Part shown: piece by piece, positions 6,479-33,975 of the stretch
Layout of the letters: each line of letters opens with the position of its first letter
Numbering within the stretch: the first letter of the stretch is position 1
IMG/VR virus record: IMGVR_UViG_3300025101_000012
Span: 1 to 33,975 of that record
Length of the DNA: 33,975 bases
Origin: a virus
Direction: 5' to 3' (one strand)
The notes under the pieces: model-generated
Database searches by the model: none
What the model was told of the DNA's origin: nothing
Seen by the model: the letters and a program-made list of their open reading frames with translations, nothing else
Program-made: the position numbers and the translations under genes

Positions 6479-6712
6479 ATGAAATCATTTTTTTTATTTG
6501 CAATGATTTGTTTTGCTGATCCTGAAGCACCACGTGGTATTAGCTGTATGGATTTTAAAGAAAATGATGATAAAATTTATAACTCTCCCAAGGCTTGTTA
6601 TGATGCAGCAAATAAAGTGGGTGATGAAATTAAAATACAATTTACCACTAACGAAATTAAAATATTAGAGTTAATTATTTGGTGTGTAAATACTAAAGGT
6701 GAGATTGTTTAG
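6479..6712 (+). CDS. Small probably exported Cys protein
   Basis: 77 residues. The N-terminus MKSFFLFAMICFADPEAPRG reads as a short signal peptide cleaved near FA-DP. The mature part has three Cys (SCMDF, KACYDA, WCVNT) and would be periplasmic. It ends at 6710-6712 and overlaps the stop codon of the convergent minus-strand DnaA-like gene. It is the third exported-protein candidate of this genome. Confidence 0.65.
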   Translation: MKSFFLFAMICFADPEAPRGISCMDFKENDDKIYNSPKACYDAANKVGDEIKIQFTTNEIKILELIIWCVNTKGEIV

Positions 6713-7254
6713 AAAGATTTAAGTTCTATCTCTAAATCTTTGTATAACTTTTCATAATGTTGCCAAGTAATATTGTGAACATCCCAAAATCTTTTATGGT
6801 CAAACTTCATTCTTAAATGATGTAGGATTGTGGTGTGGTCTCTACCTCCAAGTATTCTACCAATCTCAGGTAAAGATAAAGGTGTCAGTTCTCTGATTAA
6901 ATTAATAATTACAGATCTAACTTCAGCGTATTCTCTCAAACGTCTAGGTGAAATAATCTCTTCATGGGTTCGGTTATAATGACGAAGCACTTTGTTATAA
7001 ATATAATCGGCTTGTCTGTTTGCAGTTTTGTAAACACTGGTTCTGGTATGTTGGTTAGGTGTCTTACCTTTAGCGACATAAATAAATTTTGTAATTGTTT
7101 TTGATTTGATGGTGTGTTCTTGACCTAGTTTATATCCCGTCATAAATGCGGACTGATGAATGTTTCGTTCTCGTTCATTCAAGTTTTCATAAGCAGATAT
7201 ATTTATTTTATAATTATATTCGTCTAATAAATTTTGATTTATATTTTGAGACAT
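6709..7254 (-). CDS. DnaA domain IV-like protein (replication initiator mimic)
   Basis: 181 residues from the ATG at 7254, chosen for the AAGGG ribosome site; an in-frame ATG at 7275 is possible. The C-terminal part (about 98-150) matches the DNA-binding domain IV of DnaA: a SPRRLREYAEVRSVIINLI helix, SLPEIGRILGGRDHTTILHH with the signature GGRDHTT at 136-142. The AAA+ ATPase domain is absent; the N-terminal 95 residues are unrecognised. It should bind DnaA boxes and could mark the phage origin for the host replisome or repress promoters. It ends the leftward operon and its stop overlaps the convergent plus-strand gene. Confidence 0.8.
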   Translation of the reverse strand: MSQNINQNLLDEYNYKINISAYENLNERERNIHQSAFMTGYKLGQEHTIKSKTITKFIYVAKGKTPNQHTRTSVYKTANRQADYIYNKVLRHYNRTHEEIISPRRLREYAEVRSVIINLIRELTPLSLPEIGRILGGRDHTTILHHLRMKFDHKRFWDVHNITWQHYEKLYKDLEIELKSF

Positions 7255-7465: not shown

Positions 7466-7625
7466 CTTCTCTCCTTACTGTTGTAAAGTCAATCTTTACT
7501 TCATTGACTTTTACTTCTACTGATAAAGGATTTTTATTATCAGCAGCATTCTCTACGGAAATGAATTTTTGTTCTCTAACAAAATTACAAACTCCGCTAT
7601 CTCTTTTTATATATGATTTTGACAT
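7407..7625 (-). CDS. Hypothetical protein in the leftward operon
   Basis: 72 residues with an AGAGG site 9-10 nt before the ATG. MSKSYIKRDSGVCNFVREQK opens a beta-type N-terminal region; the last 20 residues, charged and Gly/Glu-rich, overlap the strongly initiated 7307-7465 gene. It starts 5 nt after the DUF6378-like gene. No domain recognised. Confidence 0.55.
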   Translation of the reverse strand: MSKSYIKRDSGVCNFVREQKFISVENAADNKNPLSVEVKVNEVKIDFTTVRREDDESQKGTPEAERQGTKKI

Positions 7626-7630
7626 ATTGT

Positions 7631-7906
7631 CTAGTCCTCTTTATGTAAATCTTTTGCCATGTCTAAATAAATACTTGCATCTAAATAAGTGTCAGCTTTG
7701 TAAGCTCGTGTTGTTCTTAACATTTTTAACATCACCATCATGTTCGCTGCTTCGTAAGGTTTGACATCTGATTTTAATTTATCTTTTAATATAACGGACC
7801 AGAGAAAAGCAATCAATCCCATATTCTCTTTATAATCCCCATACTCTTTATCTTTTTGATCTCGGAGTTTCTTCTTAATTTCTTTTTCTAAATCTATTGT
7901 GTTCAT
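7631..7906 (-). CDS. DUF6378-like phage protein
   Basis: 91 residues: KEYGDYKENMGLIAFLWSVI, then VKPYEAANMMVMLKMLRTTR and DTYLDASIYLDMAKD. This is the all-helical DUF6378 layout (YG.....N...IA..WS..L....V...M.MLK..R.....D...D...Y). The family is common in phages and may relate to nucleotide pyrophosphohydrolases; this is not proven. The ATG has no Shine-Dalgarno sequence and lies 11 nt after a highly structured RNA element, so its translation may depend on that structure. Confidence 0.75.
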   Translation of the reverse strand: MNTIDLEKEIKKKLRDQKDKEYGDYKENMGLIAFLWSVILKDKLKSDVKPYEAANMMVMLKMLRTTRAYKADTYLDASIYLDMAKDLHKED

Positions 7907-7917
7907 ATTGTTTTAGC

Positions 7918-8003
7918 GAAACAGGCAAGAGCAAAACAACTTCGAAAGGTTTAGTCTGAAAGGAACGGCTTGTAAGCCATGACTAAAATCTCTCGCCTGT
8001 TTC
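7918..8003 (-). ncRNA. Structured RNA or regulatory element in the replication operon
   Basis: Three nested stems are visible. The outer 14-bp stem is 7918-7931 with 7990-8003, the middle 7-bp stem is TTTAGTC (7950-7956) with GACTAAA (7981-7987), and the apical stem is GGCTT (7967-7971) with AAGCC (7974-7978). The single imperfect pair of the outer stem is G-U in the minus-strand RNA but A-C in the plus-strand RNA, which argues that the minus strand is the functional RNA, as in the surrounding operon. The unpaired regions are asymmetric (18 and 2 nt, then 10 and 2 nt), unlike a plain terminator, and no U-tract follows. It could be a leader controlling the DUF6378-like gene, a processed small RNA or a replication site. 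No known riboswitch is recognised. Confidence 0.7.
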
Positions 8004-8004
8004 A

Positions 8005-8040
8005 TTATAGATATTTATATCACTAGATTAATATCTATAA
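8005..8040. repeat. 11-bp perfect inverted repeat at the end of the SSB-like gene
   Basis: TTATAGATATT (8005-8015) and AATATCTATAA (8030-8040) flank a 14-nt AT-rich loop. The right arm includes the last codons and part of the stop codon of the SSB-like gene. It lies next to the larger structured element and has no U-tract. It may protect or process the mRNA 3' end. Confidence 0.6.
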
Positions 8041-8363
8041 TTTCCCTTACCAAAGTTTCCTCTCTTTTGAAAGTTGTTATTTCCAAAAGACTTTTGTTGG
8101 TAATTAGGTCTGGTATTACCCGCAGCTTTACTACCACCTTCATTCGGTGTGAGTATAACCACAATTCCACCATTAGCTTCACCTGTCTCCATATCTGAAG
8201 ACTCAAAAGCCGCTTGGTTGTACCACGTTTCCCCGATACGAGTTCCCAGTGTCCAGTTTTTATCAGGATACTTGGGGTTCTTTGGTGCAACAAAAGCTGG
8301 AAGGTTATCTCCTGCTTGTTTGTTTGGATTAGGCATAAGATTTATATATATTTTATCTGCCAT
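8028..8363 (-). CDS. Small SSB-like protein (putative)
   Basis: 111 residues with an ideal AAGGAG ribosome site. Residues 1-75 are beta-type (KIYINLMPNPNKQ, WTLGTRIGETWYNQAAF, NGGIVVILTPNEG). Residues about 76-111 are a disordered Gly/Asn/Gln tail ending in an aromatic-basic stretch (FGNNNFQKRGNFGKGNYRY). A compact beta domain with a flexible Gly-rich tail, placed between a nuclease/annealing pair and replication genes, fits a small single-strand DNA-binding or DUF736-like protein. The acidic tip typical of bacterial SSB is absent. The assignment is by shape and context. Confidence 0.6.
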   Translation of the reverse strand: MADKIYINLMPNPNKQAGDNLPAFVAPKNPKYPDKNWTLGTRIGETWYNQAAFESSDMETGEANGGIVVILTPNEGGSKAAGNTRPNYQQKSFGNNNFQKRGNFGKGNYRY

Positions 8364-8371
8364 GTTTCTCC

Positions 8372-8998
8372 TTAGTTGTTATGAACAGGTGTATTTGTAA
8401 AATTATTTTCCTGTTCTAATTGGAACTCACGTGTCTCTATAACATCTGTAATCTCTTTATAAAGTCGTGGTTCATTTTTAAGAAGATAGTCAATCGTATC
8501 TTTATATACGACATCCTTTAGATATTTTAGTCTAGGAAGATGGATTGCTTTTTTAAAACTATCCTTGACATCTTCAACATCCACATCATCATTAAGCTGT
8601 GATGTGTCTTTGGACTCCTTACGAATATCTAAACCTAACTCATCATATTCTTCTTTGCTGGTTAGGTCGTCATCCAATATCCCTAAGTACGTCAAAGCTC
8701 TGCAAAAACTAAAGCTGGTTGCTAAATCAAAGTAACCAGGTTTGTCTCTATATTGTTTTGAAAAACCCTCACTGACAATAAACTCTGGATCTTTGGTACT
8801 GATAATACATTTCATAATCAAAGCACGATCAGAATGTTCCATGAGTTTGAACTGCACACCATAGTCTGATCCAAAGACTTGTCTAAAGTATTTAATTTTT
8901 GACCACGCAGATACTGTATGCTGACCATTTTTGTTTACATACATTCCATCATCTCTGCATAAAGCCATCACTTGTTTTATTTTATCTCTCATTTTCAA
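8372..8998 (-). CDS. Probable single-strand annealing protein (ERF/Rad52-like)
   Basis: 208 residues. The core GSDYGVQFKLME, then MKCIISTKDPEFIVSEGFSK, followed by FDLATSFSFCRALTYLGILD and DDLTSKEEYDEL, has the pattern of phage recombinases of the ERF/Sak type. In these a beta sheet is followed by an A..A..RAL..LGI helix and a short S.EE motif. The C-terminus is acidic and helical. Such proteins anneal single strands during recombination-dependent replication. The RecB/Cas4-like nuclease upstream in the same operon is the expected partner, as with lambda exo/bet. The family call is from pattern reading. Confidence 0.55.
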   Translation of the reverse strand: MKMRDKIKQVMALCRDDGMYVNKNGQHTVSAWSKIKYFRQVFGSDYGVQFKLMEHSDRALIMKCIISTKDPEFIVSEGFSKQYRDKPGYFDLATSFSFCRALTYLGILDDDLTSKEEYDELGLDIRKESKDTSQLNDDVDVEDVKDSFKKAIHLPRLKYLKDVVYKDTIDYLLKNEPRLYKEITDVIETREFQLEQENNFTNTPVHNN

Positions 8999-12716: not shown

Positions 12717-12887
12717 TTATTTTAAAATTCCCTTTCTTTCTTCTACATATATTTTTATTTCATCAAATAAAGCATTCAAACAAAAGTCTCCTATGTTCAA
12801 ACTATTTAAAATGTGAATTTTCCCTTGTGGGTCTTTGATATTAATTTTAAGACTTTCCCACTCCCATTCATTTTTTTTATCTTCCAT
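12717..12887 (-). CDS. Small hypothetical protein at the end of the accessory operon
   Basis: 56 residues, MEDKKNEWEWESLKINIKDP then QGKIHILNSLNIGDFCLNAL, ending near the TerS stop. An AGAGG site lies 7 nt before the ATG. Start and previous stop share one base. It looks like a small beta-plus-helix protein, with no family recognised. Confidence 0.6.
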   Translation of the reverse strand: MEDKKNEWEWESLKINIKDPQGKIHILNSLNIGDFCLNALFDEIKIYVEERKGILK

Positions 12888-13114
12888 TACGCTACCTCTT
12901 TCTCTTTTATTTTCTCACAAAATTTAATTAACTTCTGAAAAAATATAATAGATTTTAATTCAAATGCGTATTGTTTAGCGTCACGTCTTAACATTTTGAA
13001 AGCATTATCAATAAAACCATTTAACATTTTTATTCTTTCATTATGGTTTAAACTAGCGAGATCTTTGTAAATTGCTCCGTCTCGTTTTTTATAATGTGAT
13101 AAAAATATATTCAT
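12887..13114 (-). CDS. Small helical basic protein
   Basis: 75 residues: MNIFLSHYKKRDGAIYKDLA, then NERIKMLNGFIDNAFKMLRR and FFQKLIKFCEKIKEKEVA. All-helical with basic faces. It is preceded by one of the repeated AAACAACAGAAAGGAAAG leaders (13136-13119). No homology recalled. The shared leader argues for a real, co-regulated gene. Confidence 0.65.
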   Translation of the reverse strand: MNIFLSHYKKRDGAIYKDLASLNHNERIKMLNGFIDNAFKMLRRDAKQYAFELKSIIFFQKLIKFCEKIKEKEVA

Positions 13115-13133
13115 TTACTTTCCTTTCTGTTGT

Positions 13134-13217
13134 TTACCTATTTGCTAACCATAGACCCATTAAAATAATGCAACCTATGAAAAAAAATATTACACCTAAT
13201 ACAAATGCTACTGTCAT
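13134..13217 (-). CDS. Tiny one-helix membrane protein
   Basis: 27 residues, MTVAFVLGVIFFFIGCIILM then GLWLANR: almost the whole chain is a membrane helix. AGGAG lies 5 nt before the ATG and the start overlaps the upstream stop (ATGA). Membrane microproteins of this size in early regions often affect host envelope or secretion enzymes. Unknown. Confidence 0.6.
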   Translation of the reverse strand: MTVAFVLGVIFFFIGCIILMGLWLANR

Positions 13218-13393
13218 ATATTCTCCTCATCATCCTCATCATCCTCATCATCTTTAAGAAACATATAAGATGCTCCTTCATAATACGATTTATCTGCATT
13301 ATAATGTTTTCCATTTTGTATTCTAAACCATTGTACAGGACATTGGTCTAACCATTCATGGAATTCTTCATTCATTACACTTACATCATTCAT
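13214..13393 (-). CDS. Small acidic protein with F-x-EWL-x-x-CPV motif
   Basis: 59 residues. The N-terminus has EEFHEWLDQCPVQWFRIQNG; the C-terminus is an acidic repeat (DDEDDEDDEENI) encoded by a 9-nt repeat. The FxEWLxxCPV motif is shared with the 103-residue protein at 13840-14151, so the two look like diverged paralogues. The acidic tail could mimic DNA. It couples to the next tiny membrane-protein gene by ATGA. It has no ribosome site of the repeated leader type but directly abuts the upstream stop. Confidence 0.6.
   Translation of the reverse strand: MNDVSVMNEEFHEWLDQCPVQWFRIQNGKHYNADKSYYEGASYMFLKDDEDDEDDEENI
13224..13253. repeat. 9-bp tandem repeat (three copies) coding an acidic tail
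   Basis: The unit TCATCATCC, read on the plus strand, is repeated about three times. It encodes the Asp/Asp/Glu tail of the gene at 13214-13393. Such a tract can change length by slippage without a frame change. Confidence 0.7.
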
Positions 13394-13549
13394 TTACGCC
13401 ACCTCTTGATCTAGTTTTTTTTCATAAAAATAAACTTTAGCAACAATACCTTTTGTTGCACAATGCGTTATCTCAAAATCTAAATCATAAAACTCGTTAT
13501 CAAGTCTTTTGATTAATTCATGCTCTGTTAATTTATTTTCCTTATTCAT
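13394..13549 (-). CDS. Small hypothetical protein
   Basis: 51 residues: MNKENKLTEHELIKRLDNEF, then YDLDFEITHCATKGIVAKVY and FYEKKLDQEVA. It starts at a TAATG overlap with the upstream stop and ends directly against the next ATG. A small alpha/beta chain with no recognised family. It belongs to the tightly coupled accessory run. Confidence 0.6.
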   Translation of the reverse strand: MNKENKLTEHELIKRLDNEFYDLDFEITHCATKGIVAKVYFYEKKLDQEVA

Positions 13550-13821
13550 TATCGTTCCTTTCTGTTGTTTGCTTTTTGTTTAAGTAAATTTCTTTCAACA
13601 GGAATAGTTGCAAGTCCATCTATGTTGGTGAAAATTGCTCCTGCATTATTACCCTCATCATCACAACTTGGAGTCAATATTACTCCATTACTTAAATGAA
13701 TTTCGCAAGGTTGATAATTCCAACCATAGAATTTTTTAGAATCCTTTGGACTCAAATATTCAATTTTAACAATAGTTTGTCCAACTAAACCTTTTAGTTT
13801 ATTCATAAATTGTTTATCCAT
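13549..13821 (-). CDS. Conserved small phage protein (DDEGNxxGA motif)
   Basis: 90 residues with LKGLVGQTIVKIEYLSPKDS, then CEIHLSNGVILTPSCDDEGN and NAGAIFTNIDGLATIPVERN. The pattern L.G..I..V.YLS...., a strand, a S.DDEGND.GA...T turn and IPV is a small beta protein seen in many phages; its function is unknown. A repeated leader with AAAGGA precedes it. It overlaps the next gene by TAATG. Confidence 0.7.
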   Translation of the reverse strand: MDKQFMNKLKGLVGQTIVKIEYLSPKDSKKFYGWNYQPCEIHLSNGVILTPSCDDEGNNAGAIFTNIDGLATIPVERNLLKQKANNRKER

Positions 13822-13839
13822 TGTTTTCCTTTCTGTTGT

Positions 13840-14151
13840 TTATCTGTTAATCTCATCAAATAATGATTCACCATCCATACCCTCGTAAAGGTAATGAGCA
13901 TGATCTTCACAGAATTTATATAATTTTTCATCATCCCAATTTTCATAATCTTCTGGAAGATACTCGGTAAGATAATGACCAGACGCTTCTATTGTATTAT
14001 ATTTACTTACGTCTCTATATTTATCCATATCAAAGTTAAAAGAAACTAATCCCTCACTAGGATGTTTTGTTTCTTTATATTCAACTGGACATTTTTTTAA
14101 CCACTCATTAAATCTATTATTGAGTGCTTTTGTTTTTAGTTCTTGGCTCAT
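13840..14151 (-). CDS. Hypothetical protein with F-x-EWL-x-x-CPV motif
   Basis: 103 residues. RFNEWLKKCPVEYKE near the N-terminus matches the shorter protein at 13214-13393. The middle has EGLVSFNFDMDKYRD and HYLTEYLPEDYENWDDEK, and the end is acidic (HYLYEGMDGESLFDEI). The net charge is negative, so DNA mimicry is possible. It is preceded by a copy of the repeated leader and by an extended -10 promoter at 14182-14210. Confidence 0.65.
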   Translation of the reverse strand: MSQELKTKALNNRFNEWLKKCPVEYKETKHPSEGLVSFNFDMDKYRDVSKYNTIEASGHYLTEYLPEDYENWDDEKLYKFCEDHAHYLYEGMDGESLFDEINR

Positions 14152-14155
14152 TGTT

Positions 14156-14311
14156 TTACTTTCCTTTCTGTTGTTTATTAAAGCATATCAAATTAATATA
14201 TTGATGTAAAGATATATTATTTTTTTTCAAATACCTTTCTAATCGTATTCGCATAATACCTTCAGAGTTCCACCAATTAAGAATTGTTTTAGCTTTTAAT
14301 TGTTGTGTCAT
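14156..14311 (-). CDS. Possible small basic protein overlapping the next leader
   Basis: 51 residues, MTQQLKAKTILNWWNSEGIM then RIRLERYLKKNNISLHQYIN, ending with residues coded by the repeated leader of the following gene. It begins 3 nt after the previous stop. The overlap with a promoter and a conserved leader means the 3' end may simply be open by chance. Function unknown. Confidence 0.45.
   Translation of the reverse strand: MTQQLKAKTILNWWNSEGIMRIRLERYLKKNNISLHQYINLICFNKQQKGK
14182..14210 (-). promoter_or_regulatory. Extended -10 sigma70-like promoter (accessory operon)
   Basis: On the minus strand, TTTACA (14210-14205) is 17 bp from TATGCT (14187-14182), with TGA just before the -10 (TGATATGCT). 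It drives the 13840-14151 gene through a repeated AAACAACAGAAAGGAAAG leader. Confidence 0.65.
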
Positions 14312-14314
14312 TAA

Positions 14315-14506
14315 TTAGTTTTTTATTTTATTTTTTAATATATTGATTACTTCTTTTTTAGAATAATCCATAAATTTTTCTGTAAAATTACTTCCATTGT
14401 CGTGTAAACAAGTAGCAATCATCATATTATTTATTTTCAATTCTAAAAATATATCATAACCCTTATATCTTACTGGCTTGTATTCTTTTACTGTTTCGTA
14501 AAACAT
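14315..14506 (-). CDS. Small hypothetical protein
   Basis: 63 residues: MFYETVKEYKPVRYKGYDIF, then LELKINNMMIATCLHDNGSN and the helical end KEVINILKNKIKN. The leader AAACAAAGAAAGGTAAATTA is a variant of the repeated one. It resembles a small alpha/beta single-domain protein (Y.GYDI...K.N..IA) without known family. Confidence 0.6.
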   Translation of the reverse strand: MFYETVKEYKPVRYKGYDIFLELKINNMMIATCLHDNGSNFTEKFMDYSKKEVINILKNKIKN

Positions 14507-14508
14507 AA

Positions 14509-14643
14509 TTAATTTACCTTTCTTTGTTTTATTAACTCTATTATCTGTTTAATTGTCGTCTTTTTGCTGACAATTATCCCATGCTGTAAACCTAAATATC
14601 TAATGATATTAAAGTCTTTGTTTTTACCTTGATATAGTTTCAT
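14509..14643 (-). CDS. Tiny basic protein
   Basis: 44 residues, MKLYQGKNKDFNIIRYLGLQ then HGIIVSKKTTIKQIIELIKQ. The ATG abuts the preceding stop. Small and basic, possibly DNA-binding, with no motif. Its 3' end lies within the leader of the next gene. Confidence 0.5.
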   Translation of the reverse strand: MKLYQGKNKDFNIIRYLGLQHGIIVSKKTTIKQIIELIKQRKVN

Positions 14644-15204
14644 TTATGCCACTTCATCTTCTTTATAAATTTCGTCATCCCAGTTATAAAAACTATCTAC
14701 ATCTACTTTGAAAAATTTGTAGTCAGTCATTCCACCTCTAGCATCACATCCATTATGAATACAAAGAGCGATTATATTATTTTCATATAAATCACCACTT
14801 GAAATGTATTGAATATCTTGAGATAAACAGTTTTCAAAATTATATGTATATGTGCATTGACTTTCTGTTTCTGGATATATGTAGGTATCCATAAAATTTT
14901 GCACATCATTTATAATATGACATCTACCATCTGGATTTTTTACCCAGTCATATTTGTCAGCTTTTATCCAAGCATTAAACATGTTTGTCTCACTTGGTAG
15001 ATATTCCAAACTTTCATTTAAATGATGGAATAATGACTTAGTAATAAAGCCATCATCATTTGAGGTATATGACTCATTCCTGAAATCTTTGATAGATTTT
15101 TTTTGATTTCTTTGCCAGTGTCTATCATTATCTCCACCGCTATCACACAAGTGAACGCCAGTGTTTTCTGTTAACATTTTGTATATTATAGTTTCTGTTT
15201 TCAT
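14644..15204 (-). CDS. Conserved phage protein (LTENTG...DSGG..RHWQRN)
   Basis: 186 residues from the ATG at 15204, chosen for its AAAGGA ribosome site and because the conserved block begins soon after. The block MLTENTGVHLCDSGG...DRHWQRNQ is a signature I recognise in many unrelated phages and integrated elements. The C-terminal half has YNFENCLSQD, LCIHNGCDARGGMTDYKFFK, with conserved Cys/His/Asp. The function is not known; the invariant D, G, R, W and H look catalytic or ligand-binding. It is the largest accessory protein and has its own promoter after a terminator, so it leads an operon. Confidence 0.75.
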   Translation of the reverse strand: MKTETIIYKMLTENTGVHLCDSGGDNDRHWQRNQKKSIKDFRNESYTSNDDGFITKSLFHHLNESLEYLPSETNMFNAWIKADKYDWVKNPDGRCHIINDVQNFMDTYIYPETESQCTYTYNFENCLSQDIQYISSGDLYENNIIALCIHNGCDARGGMTDYKFFKVDVDSFYNWDDEIYKEDEVA

Positions 15205-15226
15205 TTTATTTTCCTTTTGTTGTTTA

Positions 15227-15261
15227 AACATATCAATACAATATATAATATGATTTGTCAA
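15227..15261 (-). promoter_or_regulatory. Promoter ahead of the 14644-15204 gene
   Basis: On the minus strand a perfect TTGACA (15261-15256) is followed by TATTGA (15238-15233) at 17 bp, and by an extended -10 TGATATGTT (15235-15227) further on. Either could serve. The terminator just upstream isolates this promoter. Confidence 0.5.
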
Positions 15262-15264
15262 CCC

Positions 15265-15301
15265 ATAAAAAAACCCCTGACAAAATTAATTATCAGGGGT
15301 T
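15265..15301 (-). terminator. Intrinsic terminator on the minus strand
   Basis: AACCCCTGA (15272-15280) pairs perfectly with TCAGGGGTT (15293-15301) over a 12-nt loop. Read on the minus strand the stem is followed by a run of seven T. It ends the 15312-15645 transcript and insulates the following promoter. Confidence 0.9.
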
Positions 15302-15311
15302 AAAAGGATAT

Positions 15312-15503
15312 TTATTTAAATTTTAATTCTTTTAAACAGGCTTCTGTAAATTTTTCTCTATCAAAATTTTTATTAAGTTCTAAAAATAAATTTGAAAGTT
15401 TATCTACTAAATCTATTTTTTGACTTAATGGATTACTGAAATTAGAGCTTCTATTATTTCCAATTATCTCAGCAATTTTTTTAAAATGTTTTTTTGTTAG
15501 CAT
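15312..15503 (-). CDS. Small helical protein
   Basis: 63 residues from the ATG at 15503, picked for the GAAGGGAG ribosome site; the frame extends to 15557 without one. MLTKKHFKKIAEIIGNNRSS opens it and REKFTEACLKELKFK closes it. The pattern 'FKKIAEII' with a basic helix resembles other very small phage early proteins. No family. It ends just before the terminator. Confidence 0.65.
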   Translation of the reverse strand: MLTKKHFKKIAEIIGNNRSSNFSNPLSQKIDLVDKLSNLFLELNKNFDREKFTEACLKELKFK

Positions 15504-15645
15504 TTGTTTTCTCCCTTCTTTGTTGTTTATATAAATCATTCCTATAATCGCACTCATCTATTGAAGCAATAGCGAGAACTACACCCATACAGACAATAGA
15601 CAAACCCATTGAAAGTAAAATAATTAATACAGATATTTCAGACAT
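15481..15645 (-). CDS. Tiny membrane protein, first gene of the accessory block
   Basis: 54 residues with an AAAGGA ribosome site. Residues about 4-28 (ISVLIILLSMGLSIVCMGVV) form one membrane helix, followed by a charged tail (DECDYRNDLYKQQRREKTN). It overlaps the next gene by 23 nt, and the ribosome site of that gene is within it. Role unknown; it parallels the 27-residue membrane protein at 13134-13217. Confidence 0.6.
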   Translation of the reverse strand: MSEISVLIILLSMGLSIVCMGVVLAIASIDECDYRNDLYKQQRREKTNANKKTF

Positions 15646-31734: not shown

Positions 31735-33975
31735 ATGACCATATCATCTACAACAGTTAGAAATTCATATTCAGGCGATGGATCAACTACTGCCTTTAGC
31801 TACACCTTTAAGATTTTTGCTGACTCTGATTTACAAGTTATCATAAGAAGTAGCACAGGATCTGAAACTACAAAAACTATCTCAACTCATTACAATGTTT
31901 CTGGAGCTGGAGATGCTTCAGGTGGAAGTGTAACTTTCACATCAGGTAATATTCCTGCATCTGGAGAGACTGTAGTTCTTAGAAGAGCTGTCCCGCAAAC
32001 ACAAGCAATAGATTATATTGCTAATGATCCTTTCCCTGCGGAGTCTCACGAAGAGGGTCTGGATCGTGCAACAATGAACATTCAACAAATGCAAGAAGAG
32101 TTGGATAGATCATTTAAAGTTTCAAGAACTAACTCAATTACAACTCCAGAATTTACAGACAGTGCATCAGACAGAGCTTCTAAAACATTAGGCTTTGATA
32201 GCGATGGAAACTTAACCACTGTTGCAGATTTTTTACCTGCGGGTGGAGACTCTGCACAATTTACTTATTCAACAACAACAACTGATTCTGATCCAGGATC
32301 AGGAATATTTAGATTAAACAATGCAACAATCTCTAGTGCAACAGAAATGTACATTGATGATTTAGAAGCAAATGGAACAGATGTTTCTGCTTGGGTTCAA
32401 TCATGGGATGATGTGACAGGTAATGATACTAATAGAGGAAGAATAAGAATTTCAAAAGCAAACACCTTAGATAGTTGGATGGTATTTAAAGTAACGGGTG
32501 CAATCACTGACGCAAGTGGTTATTCAAAAATAAGTTTAGTATACATTGATAACGCTGGGACATTTTCTAACAATGACAAAGTATTTATTTCATTTGTAGC
32601 CAGTGGAGAAGACGGATCAATACCAGGATATTTTTACAAGTTTGATACTGGAACATCTGATGCAGATCCAGGAGCTGGAGAGATAGCATTTAATAATGGA
32701 ACTTATGCTTCTGCTACAGAAATTTATATTGATGACGCTGATTCAAATGGCGTTACTGTTTCAGCAGATATTTTAACATGGGATGATTCAACATCAACTA
32801 TCAGAGGATATTTGCATATTGTAGATATTAACGACAGCACTACATACGCAAGATTTAAAATTACAGGTGCGTCAACTGATGCTTCAGGTTACGTAAAATT
32901 AGCTGTAGGTCATTTAGCATCCAATAATACTTTTTCTGCTGCGGATGAATTATCAGTTCACTTTACAAGAAACGGAGACACTGGAGATACAGGTGCTACT
33001 GGATCAACTGGTTCTACAGGATCAACTGGTGCCACTGGAGCTTCAGGAACAAACTCACAGCTATCCATGACTTTCAATAACTCTACATCAGACGCTGACC
33101 CTGGTGCTGGTAAAATTGCTTTTAACAATGGCACATTAGCAAGTGTATCAGTTCTATTTGTAGATGATGCAGACGATGGTGGAGCAGACATTACCACTTT
33201 TGTACAATCTTTTGATGATGTTTCAAACTCAACAGCAAGAGGAATTGTTACCATTACAAAAGAAGGTACACCCGCAACTTTTGCAACTTACAAAGTATCA
33301 GGTGCGATTACAGATGCTTCTGGATATACAAAAGTTCCAGTAACACATTTAGCTTCTAATGGCACTTTTTCTAATACAGATGGAGTAGGTGTTCATTTTA
33401 GTTATTCAGGTGCAGATGGATCTGGAGACATAGAAGGAGTTACAGCAGGAACAAATTTATCAGGCGGAGGAACAAGCGGAACTGTTACTATAAATTTAGC
33501 AGATGCTTCAACCTCAGCTAAAGGTGCTGCGTCTTTTAGTTCAGATAATTTTGCTGCTAGTTCAGGTGCAATAACAATTAAAGATTTAGGAGTGGCTACA
33601 GCAGAAATACAAGATAACGCAATTACTTTAGCAAAAATGGCTGGTGGTACAGATGGAAATATTATTTCTTATGATGCGTCTGGTGATCCTGTAGCTGTTG
33701 CAACTGGAAGTGCAGGACAAGTTTTAACTTCTGCAGGTGCAGGTTCACCTCCAACTTTTGCTACTCCTAGTGGCGGATCAAGTGATTTCTTTTTTGCATC
33801 TAAAACCTCTGGTCAAAGTATACCAAACAATACTAATACCAAAGTAACTTTTACTAGCGAAGATTATGACACAGGTAGTGATTTTGCTTCTAGTACATAT
33901 ACCGCTCCTTCAGATGGCAAATACTTTTTTTACACTAAATTATTATGTGATAATAGTTCAGGCGATACAGCTAAA
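31735..33975 (+). CDS. Tail fibre protein (5' part; continues across the circle junction)
   Basis: The frame is open from the ATG at 31735 to the window end. After removal of the 99-bp duplication it continues at base 100 and stops at 307-309, giving about 816 residues. Residues 1-130 resemble the T7 gp17 N-terminal domain that attaches the fibre to the tail (RRAVPQTQAIDYIANDPFPA, then an EEGLDRATMNIQQMQEELDR helix). Three homologous modules of about 115 residues follow (about 175-295, 298-413 and 444-560). Each starts with a D-x-DPG-x-G motif and contains VTGAITDASGY or a close variant. A collagen-like G-x-y run (about 414-440) separates modules 2 and 3. The end, about 682-816, is C1q-like (YTAPSDGKYFF, SAILDLSADD, YFMGYKIA), probably the trimeric receptor-binding tip. 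The gene follows the ejected internal protein, as in T7-like phages. The start is well supported by the family match at residue 1. Confidence 0.9.
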   Translation, partial: MTISSTTVRNSYSGDGSTTAFSYTFKIFADSDLQVIIRSSTGSETTKTISTHYNVSGAGDASGGSVTFTSGNIPASGETVVLRRAVPQTQAIDYIANDPFPAESHEEGLDRATMNIQQMQEELDRSFKVSRTNSITTPEFTDSASDRASKTLGFDSDGNLTTVADFLPAGGDSAQFTYSTTTTDSDPGSGIFRLNNATISSATEMYIDDLEANGTDVSAWVQSWDDVTGNDTNRGRIRISKANTLDSWMVFKVTGAITDASGYSKISLVYIDNAGTFSNNDKVFISFVASGEDGSIPGYFYKFDTGTSDADPGAGEIAFNNGTYASATEIYIDDADSNGVTVSADILTWDDSTSTIRGYLHIVDINDSTTYARFKITGASTDASGYVKLAVGHLASNNTFSAADELSVHFTRNGDTGDTGATGSTGSTGSTGATGASGTNSQLSMTFNNSTSDADPGAGKIAFNNGTLASVSVLFVDDADDGGADITTFVQSFDDVSNSTARGIVTITKEGTPATFATYKVSGAITDASGYTKVPVTHLASNGTFSNTDGVGVHFSYSGADGSGDIEGVTAGTNLSGGGTSGTVTINLADASTSAKGAASFSSDNFAASSGAITIKDLGVATAEIQDNAITLAKMAGGTDGNIISYDASGDPVAVATGSAGQVLTSAGAGSPPTFATPSGGSSDFFFASKTSGQSIPNNTNTKVTFTSEDYDTGSDFASSTYTAPSDGKYFFYTKLLCDNSSGDTAK
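33877..33975. repeat. Right copy of the 99-bp terminal direct repeat
   Basis: Exact copy of bases 1-99. Removing one copy closes the genome at about 33,876 bp and joins the tail-fibre gene without changing its frame. Confidence 0.95.

Follow-up and report, generated by a model that had tools for sequence, protein, structure and literature searches.

A structured RNA family in the replication operon of HTVC010P-type pelagiphages

Hairpins that lie between genes on the mRNA strand, directly 3' of one of them, are known from phage lambda (sib) and from the intercistronic RNase III sites of T7; RNase III prefers a helix of about 22 bp. The leader operators of T4 gene 32 and M13 gene II are pyrimidine- or U-rich RNAs tied to a gene of the replication and recombination cluster. 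Phage single-strand-binding proteins such as M13 gene V and T4 gp32 exert feedback control, and to our knowledge their operators are located in 5' leaders and not at 3' ends. In ENE and other triple-helix elements U-rich strands flank a GC-rich stem that is followed by an A-rich tract, and the mitochondrial origin OriL combines a GC-rich purine/pyrimidine stem with a T-rich loop.

The element described here resembles each of these systems in part. It lies in a 33,975-base IMG/VR virus record (the window), whose nearest annotated DNA match is pelagiphage HTVC010P. It shares its intercistronic position with lambda sib and the T7 sites, whereas its conserved pyrimidine loop motifs and stop-codon hairpin have no counterpart in them, and its cleavage is putative. 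Its pyrimidine-rich loop recalls the T4 and M13 operators, but it is placed 3' of its gene and not in a leader, and nucleic-acid binding by the encoded protein is likewise putative. Compared with ENE, its minimal form has no upper stem, its linker appears too short and its A-tract is not universal; in contrast to OriL, it has G-U pairs throughout and a linkage to the coding frame, which point to RNA. We found no description of the element in the literature and regard it as a previously unlisted RNA family, although it may be included in the large catalogue of candidate viral structured RNAs reportedly assembled by Fremin and co-workers in 2023.

The element in the window

A non-coding element had originally been predicted at 7918-8003, with three nested stems of 14, 7 and 5 bp and an imperfect outer pair that is G-U on the minus strand and A-C on the plus strand. 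Folding of this 86-base hairpin region agrees with that description: it gives stems P1 (14 bp), P2 (7 bp) and P3 (5 bp), the one imperfect pair of P1 is A7927/C7994 on the plus strand and G-U on the minus strand, and the minus-strand fold reaches -31.2 kcal/mol (z -4.7, none of 200 shuffles as good), against -24.6 kcal/mol on the plus strand (z -3.1, 1 of 200 shuffles as good). The predicted extent holds for this fold but not for its end, where a further hairpin, P0, adjoins at 8004-8041 and makes the element larger; the 181-nt region containing P0 and P1 folds with z -4.5 on the minus strand and -2.7 on the plus strand. Similarly, P1 is conserved family-wide, but P2 and P3 are lineage-specific and missing from the minimal form. 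The parts found in the window, in the order in which the minus strand is read, are the following.

8028-8363, minus strand: upstream open reading frame of 111 aa, with a strong AAGGAG ribosome site; its 3' end carries the element
8004-8041, minus strand: P0 hairpin, with arms 8030-8041 and 8004-8015 (12 bp) and the stop codon (8028-8030) inside
7990-8003, minus strand: 5' arm of P1, GAAACAGGCGAGAG, purine-rich
7985-7988, minus strand: conserved U-tract on the 5' side of the loop, UUUU in the window and U5-7 in most relatives
7950-7987, minus strand: P2 stem, lineage-specific (7950-7956 with 7981-7987, 7 bp)
7967-7978, minus strand: P3 hairpin, lineage-specific (7967-7971 with 7974-7978)
7958-7963, minus strand: first copy of CCUUUC, which is the best-conserved stretch outside the stems and occurs in 42 of 43 distinct loops
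7944-7949, minus strand: second copy of CCUUUC, present in the L024 type as well
7933-7940, minus strand: GUUGUUUU, the GUUU(U) motif, shortly ahead of the 3' arm of P1
7918-7931, minus strand: 3' arm of P1, CTCTTGCCTGTTTC, pyrimidine-rich
7631-7906, minus strand: downstream open reading frame, DUF6378, with its start codon 11 nt past P1; the gene at this position varies among relatives

The downstream start codon is preceded in the window by AAAACAAT, without a Shine-Dalgarno sequence, as the original prediction had noted. Its statements that the element is followed by no terminator U-tract and matches no known riboswitch, ribozyme or tRNA also agree with our searches. No terminator-like site was found in 7600-8500, and in most relatives P1 is followed by an A-rich stretch and not by a U-tract. 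A search of Rfam 15 with the window and 11 relatives of the main types gave no match at the gathering threshold and, at E<=10, a single sub-threshold chance match (E 0.32), and a tRNA search gave none. A riboswitch, with a conserved core ahead of one functional gene class, is not supported, the class of the downstream gene being variable.

The P0 arms of the window were also recovered as a self-complementary match. A TATAAT-like promoter match (10/12) lies in P0 at 8014-8041 on the plus strand, and because the arms are complementary TATAAT occurs on the minus strand of P0 too; other lineages are without it. The replication operon is closed by a protein with only the C-terminal DNA-binding domain of DnaA (6709-7254, minus strand), and DnaA boxes are not enriched: the window has 4 matches where 7.1 are expected, none of them near the element. 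GC skew in the window tracks gene direction and is uninformative.

Distribution, anatomy and covariation

Relatives were collected with the upstream 111-aa protein (26 loci), with a profile search (80 loci, some on the same contigs) and with two scans of IMG/VR for the loop pattern, which added 68 and 79 viral matches, and later scans enlarged the analysed set to about 256 loci; some contigs were fetched more than once and enter these locus counts repeatedly, so that the numbers of distinct sequences are more trustworthy. The element was found directly 3' of the upstream gene in all 182 loci with that gene (108 distinct stretches), and it is present in the isolates HTVC010P, HTVC024P, HTVC034P, HTVC035P, HTVC100P, HTVC203P, HTVC204P, Greip, Lederberg and Skadi-1. 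Furthermore, 67 of the 68 and 76 of the 79 viral pattern matches lie behind the upstream gene, the remaining four being cut by contig ends, and neither the pattern scans nor a descriptor search revealed an element that lacks the upstream gene, contig ends aside. The descriptor search covered 1.8 Mb of fetched sequence and found no copy away from the site behind the upstream gene; it gave one copy each for the window and for the complete HTVC010P and Skadi-1 genomes, and none for HTVC011P, HTVC019P and HTVC028P; pelagiphages without the upstream gene lack the element. When 84,980 bacterial and archaeal species genomes were scanned with one form of the pattern, the two matches obtained both lacked the P1 stem and were due to chance. 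The element is a structured RNA family of HTVC010P-type pelagiphages, present in every relative examined.

In its minimal form the element consists of a stem of 12-14 bp and a loop such as UUUUUUUCCCUUUCCGUUUU (HTVC024P), about 45 nt overall, and in larger forms, including that of the window, P2 and P3 are inserted between the U-tract and GUUUU. The U-tract and the GUUU(U) motif adjoining the P1 3' arm are each present in 43 of 43 distinct loops; CCUUUC occupies the apical loop of P3 in the GGTGTGG type and the L192 type, and an internal loop in the type of the window. P1 is purine-rich on one strand (mean fraction 0.73), and 63 of 79 distinct tails have an A-rich sequence after it, L025, L033 and L036 being among the relatives without this tract. 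P0 lies directly 5' of P1, with a gap usually of 0-5 nt and none in the window, and mostly measures 8-14 bp. It is found in nearly all of 105 distinct upstream stretches (mean z 2.9, above 2 in 89), with a sequence that differs by lineage. In the minimal-type lineage an anchored test found 95.6% of P0 positions paired, against 18-61% at other offsets; in the GGTGTGG-type lineage this test was misplaced and gave no signal, and P0 is there supported by the 105-stretch test. P0 and P1 together form a nearly contiguous helix of about 22 bp. Selection for a 22-bp total is not evident, since the two lengths show no mutual compensation (correlation +0.23).

Because MAFFT applied to whole elements misaligned the 3' arms, covariation in P1 was scored on its 11 innermost pairs, aligned without gaps and linked through a constant, information-free filler loop. 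Among 31 distinct P1 stems 99.4% of the cells in these 11 pairs are paired, whereas sliding the partner by 1-3 columns leaves only 47-66%. The original prediction had been staked on compensatory changes among relatives, and it survived decisively, with compensatory double changes at 11 of 11 pairs. The minus-strand RNA that it proposed is supported by the imperfect pairs of the same 31 stems, which in operon polarity comprise 53 G-U and no A-C, as counted on arms located by a pairing-based finder that favours paired cells and allows G-U but not A-C. A strand-neutral finder arrived at the same P1 for nearly every stem, choosing other stems for L033, L036 and L151, and the A-C pairs that it showed all lay beyond the inner 11 pairs; the remaining bias of the finder is limited by the slid and shuffled controls and by the descriptor search of 1.8 Mb. 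Furthermore, in each of 75 distinct elements the better fold is that of the operon strand, with a mean z of -5.4 against -3.9 for the other strand. G-U pairs make up about 15% of P1 cells, and such a wobble rate is unusual in DNA and normal in RNA. The pattern of P1 fits an RNA of the operon strand and argues against a palindrome or cruciform in double-stranded DNA; taken alone, the strand signal is also compatible with single-stranded DNA of operon polarity. Together, this evidence makes it almost certain that the element is a real structured RNA family supported by covariation.

The genes on either side

The upstream gene is annotated as hypothetical in the isolates and comes after a putative single-strand-annealing gene. 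The original prediction had called its product SSB-like, a description which family, PDB-sequence and fold searches leave unsupported: the 111-aa protein has no match in Pfam, PHROG, NCBIfam or the PDB, and a fold search with its model, which is of moderate to low confidence (pLDDT 67), was without a match. The distance from the upstream stop codon to P1 is 10-45 nt, and P0 overlaps the stop codon, which makes the element inseparable from the upstream gene. Pairing of the CCUUUC loop with the ribosome site of the upstream gene itself was considered and rejected, the sites being AAGGAG and a poor match.

The downstream side is variable. The genes found there are DUF6378 (123), DUF3310 (117) and rare insertions, which comprise a C5 methyltransferase, Dam-type methyltransferases, Mom and an unassigned protein resembling adenine methyltransferases. 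They form seven sequence groups from several unrelated families; many have no Shine-Dalgarno sequence and some bring their own. The next start codon follows the end of P1 at a median distance of 14 nt (about 8-17 nt). Insertions are all found past P1, ahead of the next gene, and none separates the upstream gene from the element. The element stays when the downstream gene is exchanged, so that it belongs to the upstream gene or to this operon position and not to DUF6378. Control aimed specifically at the DUF6378-like gene, as once proposed, is consequently unlikely, since the element is kept when DUF3310, DNA methyltransferases or Mom take over. As a separate observation, the gap past the element is a hot spot for the insertion of DNA-modification genes (L008, L009, L011, L025, L136 and L155), with C5 and Dam-type methyltransferases and Mom standing in place of, or ahead of, the usual DUF6378 or DUF3310 gene.

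A candidate role in the operon mRNA and its alternatives

From the observed structure, operon strand, conservation and position of the element and its linkage to the upstream gene, the explanation that we tentatively prefer is an intercistronic cis element of the 3'-UTR type, which would govern how the upstream mRNA is processed or how stable it is, and would insulate the next start codon. P0 around the stop codon, and then the long P1 with its pyrimidine loop, would form in the polycistronic mRNA and would define and protect the processed 3' end of the upstream message, as a retroregulatory or processing and stability element; a host nuclease or a loop-binding protein may act on the hairpins, and translation of the next gene would be kept independent of the upstream gene. 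As at lambda sib and RNase III sites, the mRNA strand has a stable hairpin immediately past the 3' end of a gene, and the total P0 and P1 helix of about 22 bp is compatible with an RNase III site. However, the U-tract, CCUUUC and GUUUU of the loop are conserved more strongly than an RNase III site, or a hairpin that serves for stability alone, would require, and therefore some protein or nuclease would have to exist as a specific partner. A variant in which the element reads translation termination, the finishing ribosome opening P0 and so altering binding or cutting at P1 and the loop, seems doubtful to us; in that case the phage would tie the expression of a replication and recombination gene to what becomes of the operon mRNA that carries it. 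HTVC010P-type pelagiphages rank among the ocean's most abundant viruses, their hosts are its commonest bacteria, and little is known of gene regulation in these phages; the element offers an experimental handle on the infection programme, having a small minimal form and being present in cultured HTVC010P, HTVC024P, Greip and Skadi.

The same conserved loop could bind a protein, possibly the one encoded by the upstream gene, and so provide feedback control. The co-occurrence of gene and element without exception, the unpaired motifs as the best-conserved part and the position of the gene after a putative single-strand-annealing gene all speak for it; yet no family, PDB-sequence or fold match marks the protein (model pLDDT 67) as a nucleic-acid binder, and the element sits past the stop codon and not in a 5' leader, and we consider this explanation rather unlikely. 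Control of downstream translation, with the stem blocking a nearby start codon that has no Shine-Dalgarno sequence or the U-rich loop recruiting ribosomes, would agree with the short median distance of 14 nt and with the many downstream genes lacking such a sequence. It is unlikely in our judgement, given that the seven sequence groups belong to unrelated families, some with their own Shine-Dalgarno sequence, and that the element tracks the upstream gene; some effect on the downstream gene is nevertheless possible because the stem ends only about 8-17 nt before its start codon. A role as single-stranded DNA, for example as a lagging-strand priming site resembling OriL, would be in keeping with the purine-rich stem and T-rich loop, with an operon encoding replication and recombination proteins that include the DnaA C-terminal domain protein, and with the lack of a polymerase or primase among the window open reading frames tested. 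We regard it as improbable, since the G-U pairs of P1, normal for RNA, destabilise DNA, the stop codon within P0 ties the orientation and position of the element to the reading frames, and no DnaA-box match lies nearby; with all wobbles being G-U in transcript polarity, the replication or packaging site suggested in the original prediction is weakened.

An ENE-like triple helix, in which two U-strands of the loop would clamp the A-rich tract after P1, draws on the U-tracts at both sides of the loop base, the frequent A-rich tail and a complementarity between 3' U-strand and tail that is slightly above that of shuffled partners (5.23 against 4.90), an excess small enough to come from relatedness alone. 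The linker appears too short to span the 12-14 bp of P1 in cis and the A-tract is missing in L025, L033 and L036, and this structure is highly improbable. Hardly any credence can be given to the loop acting as an antisense to the GAAAGG Shine-Dalgarno sites of early genes, which was prompted by a 16-nt match upstream of HTVC204P gp08, an 11-nt match in HTVC010P and the occurrence of GAAAGGA ahead of 6 of 56 window genes against 0.17 expected. The loop of a phage matches its own sites no better than the loops of other phages do, HTVC024P and Greip keep the loop yet have no match of at least 8 nt at any candidate ribosome site, and the GAAAGG sites are explained by the host 16S tail; the own-versus-other-loop matrix and these two phages rule it out as a general explanation.

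GAAAGGA ribosome sites occur in the leftward gene cluster of the window (12717-15645, minus strand), and this motif matches the far 3' tail of alphaproteobacterial 16S rRNA. The ribosome site AATAGAAAGGGAAAA is conserved ahead of early genes in several HTVC010P-type phages (HTVC204P 1876-1891, HTVC010P 33786-33796). Finally, the last open reading frame of the window (31735-33975) ends with the protein sequence that opens the first (1-309), SDFASSTYTAPSDGKYFF..., so that the record ends overlap and the record is probably circular or terminally repeated.
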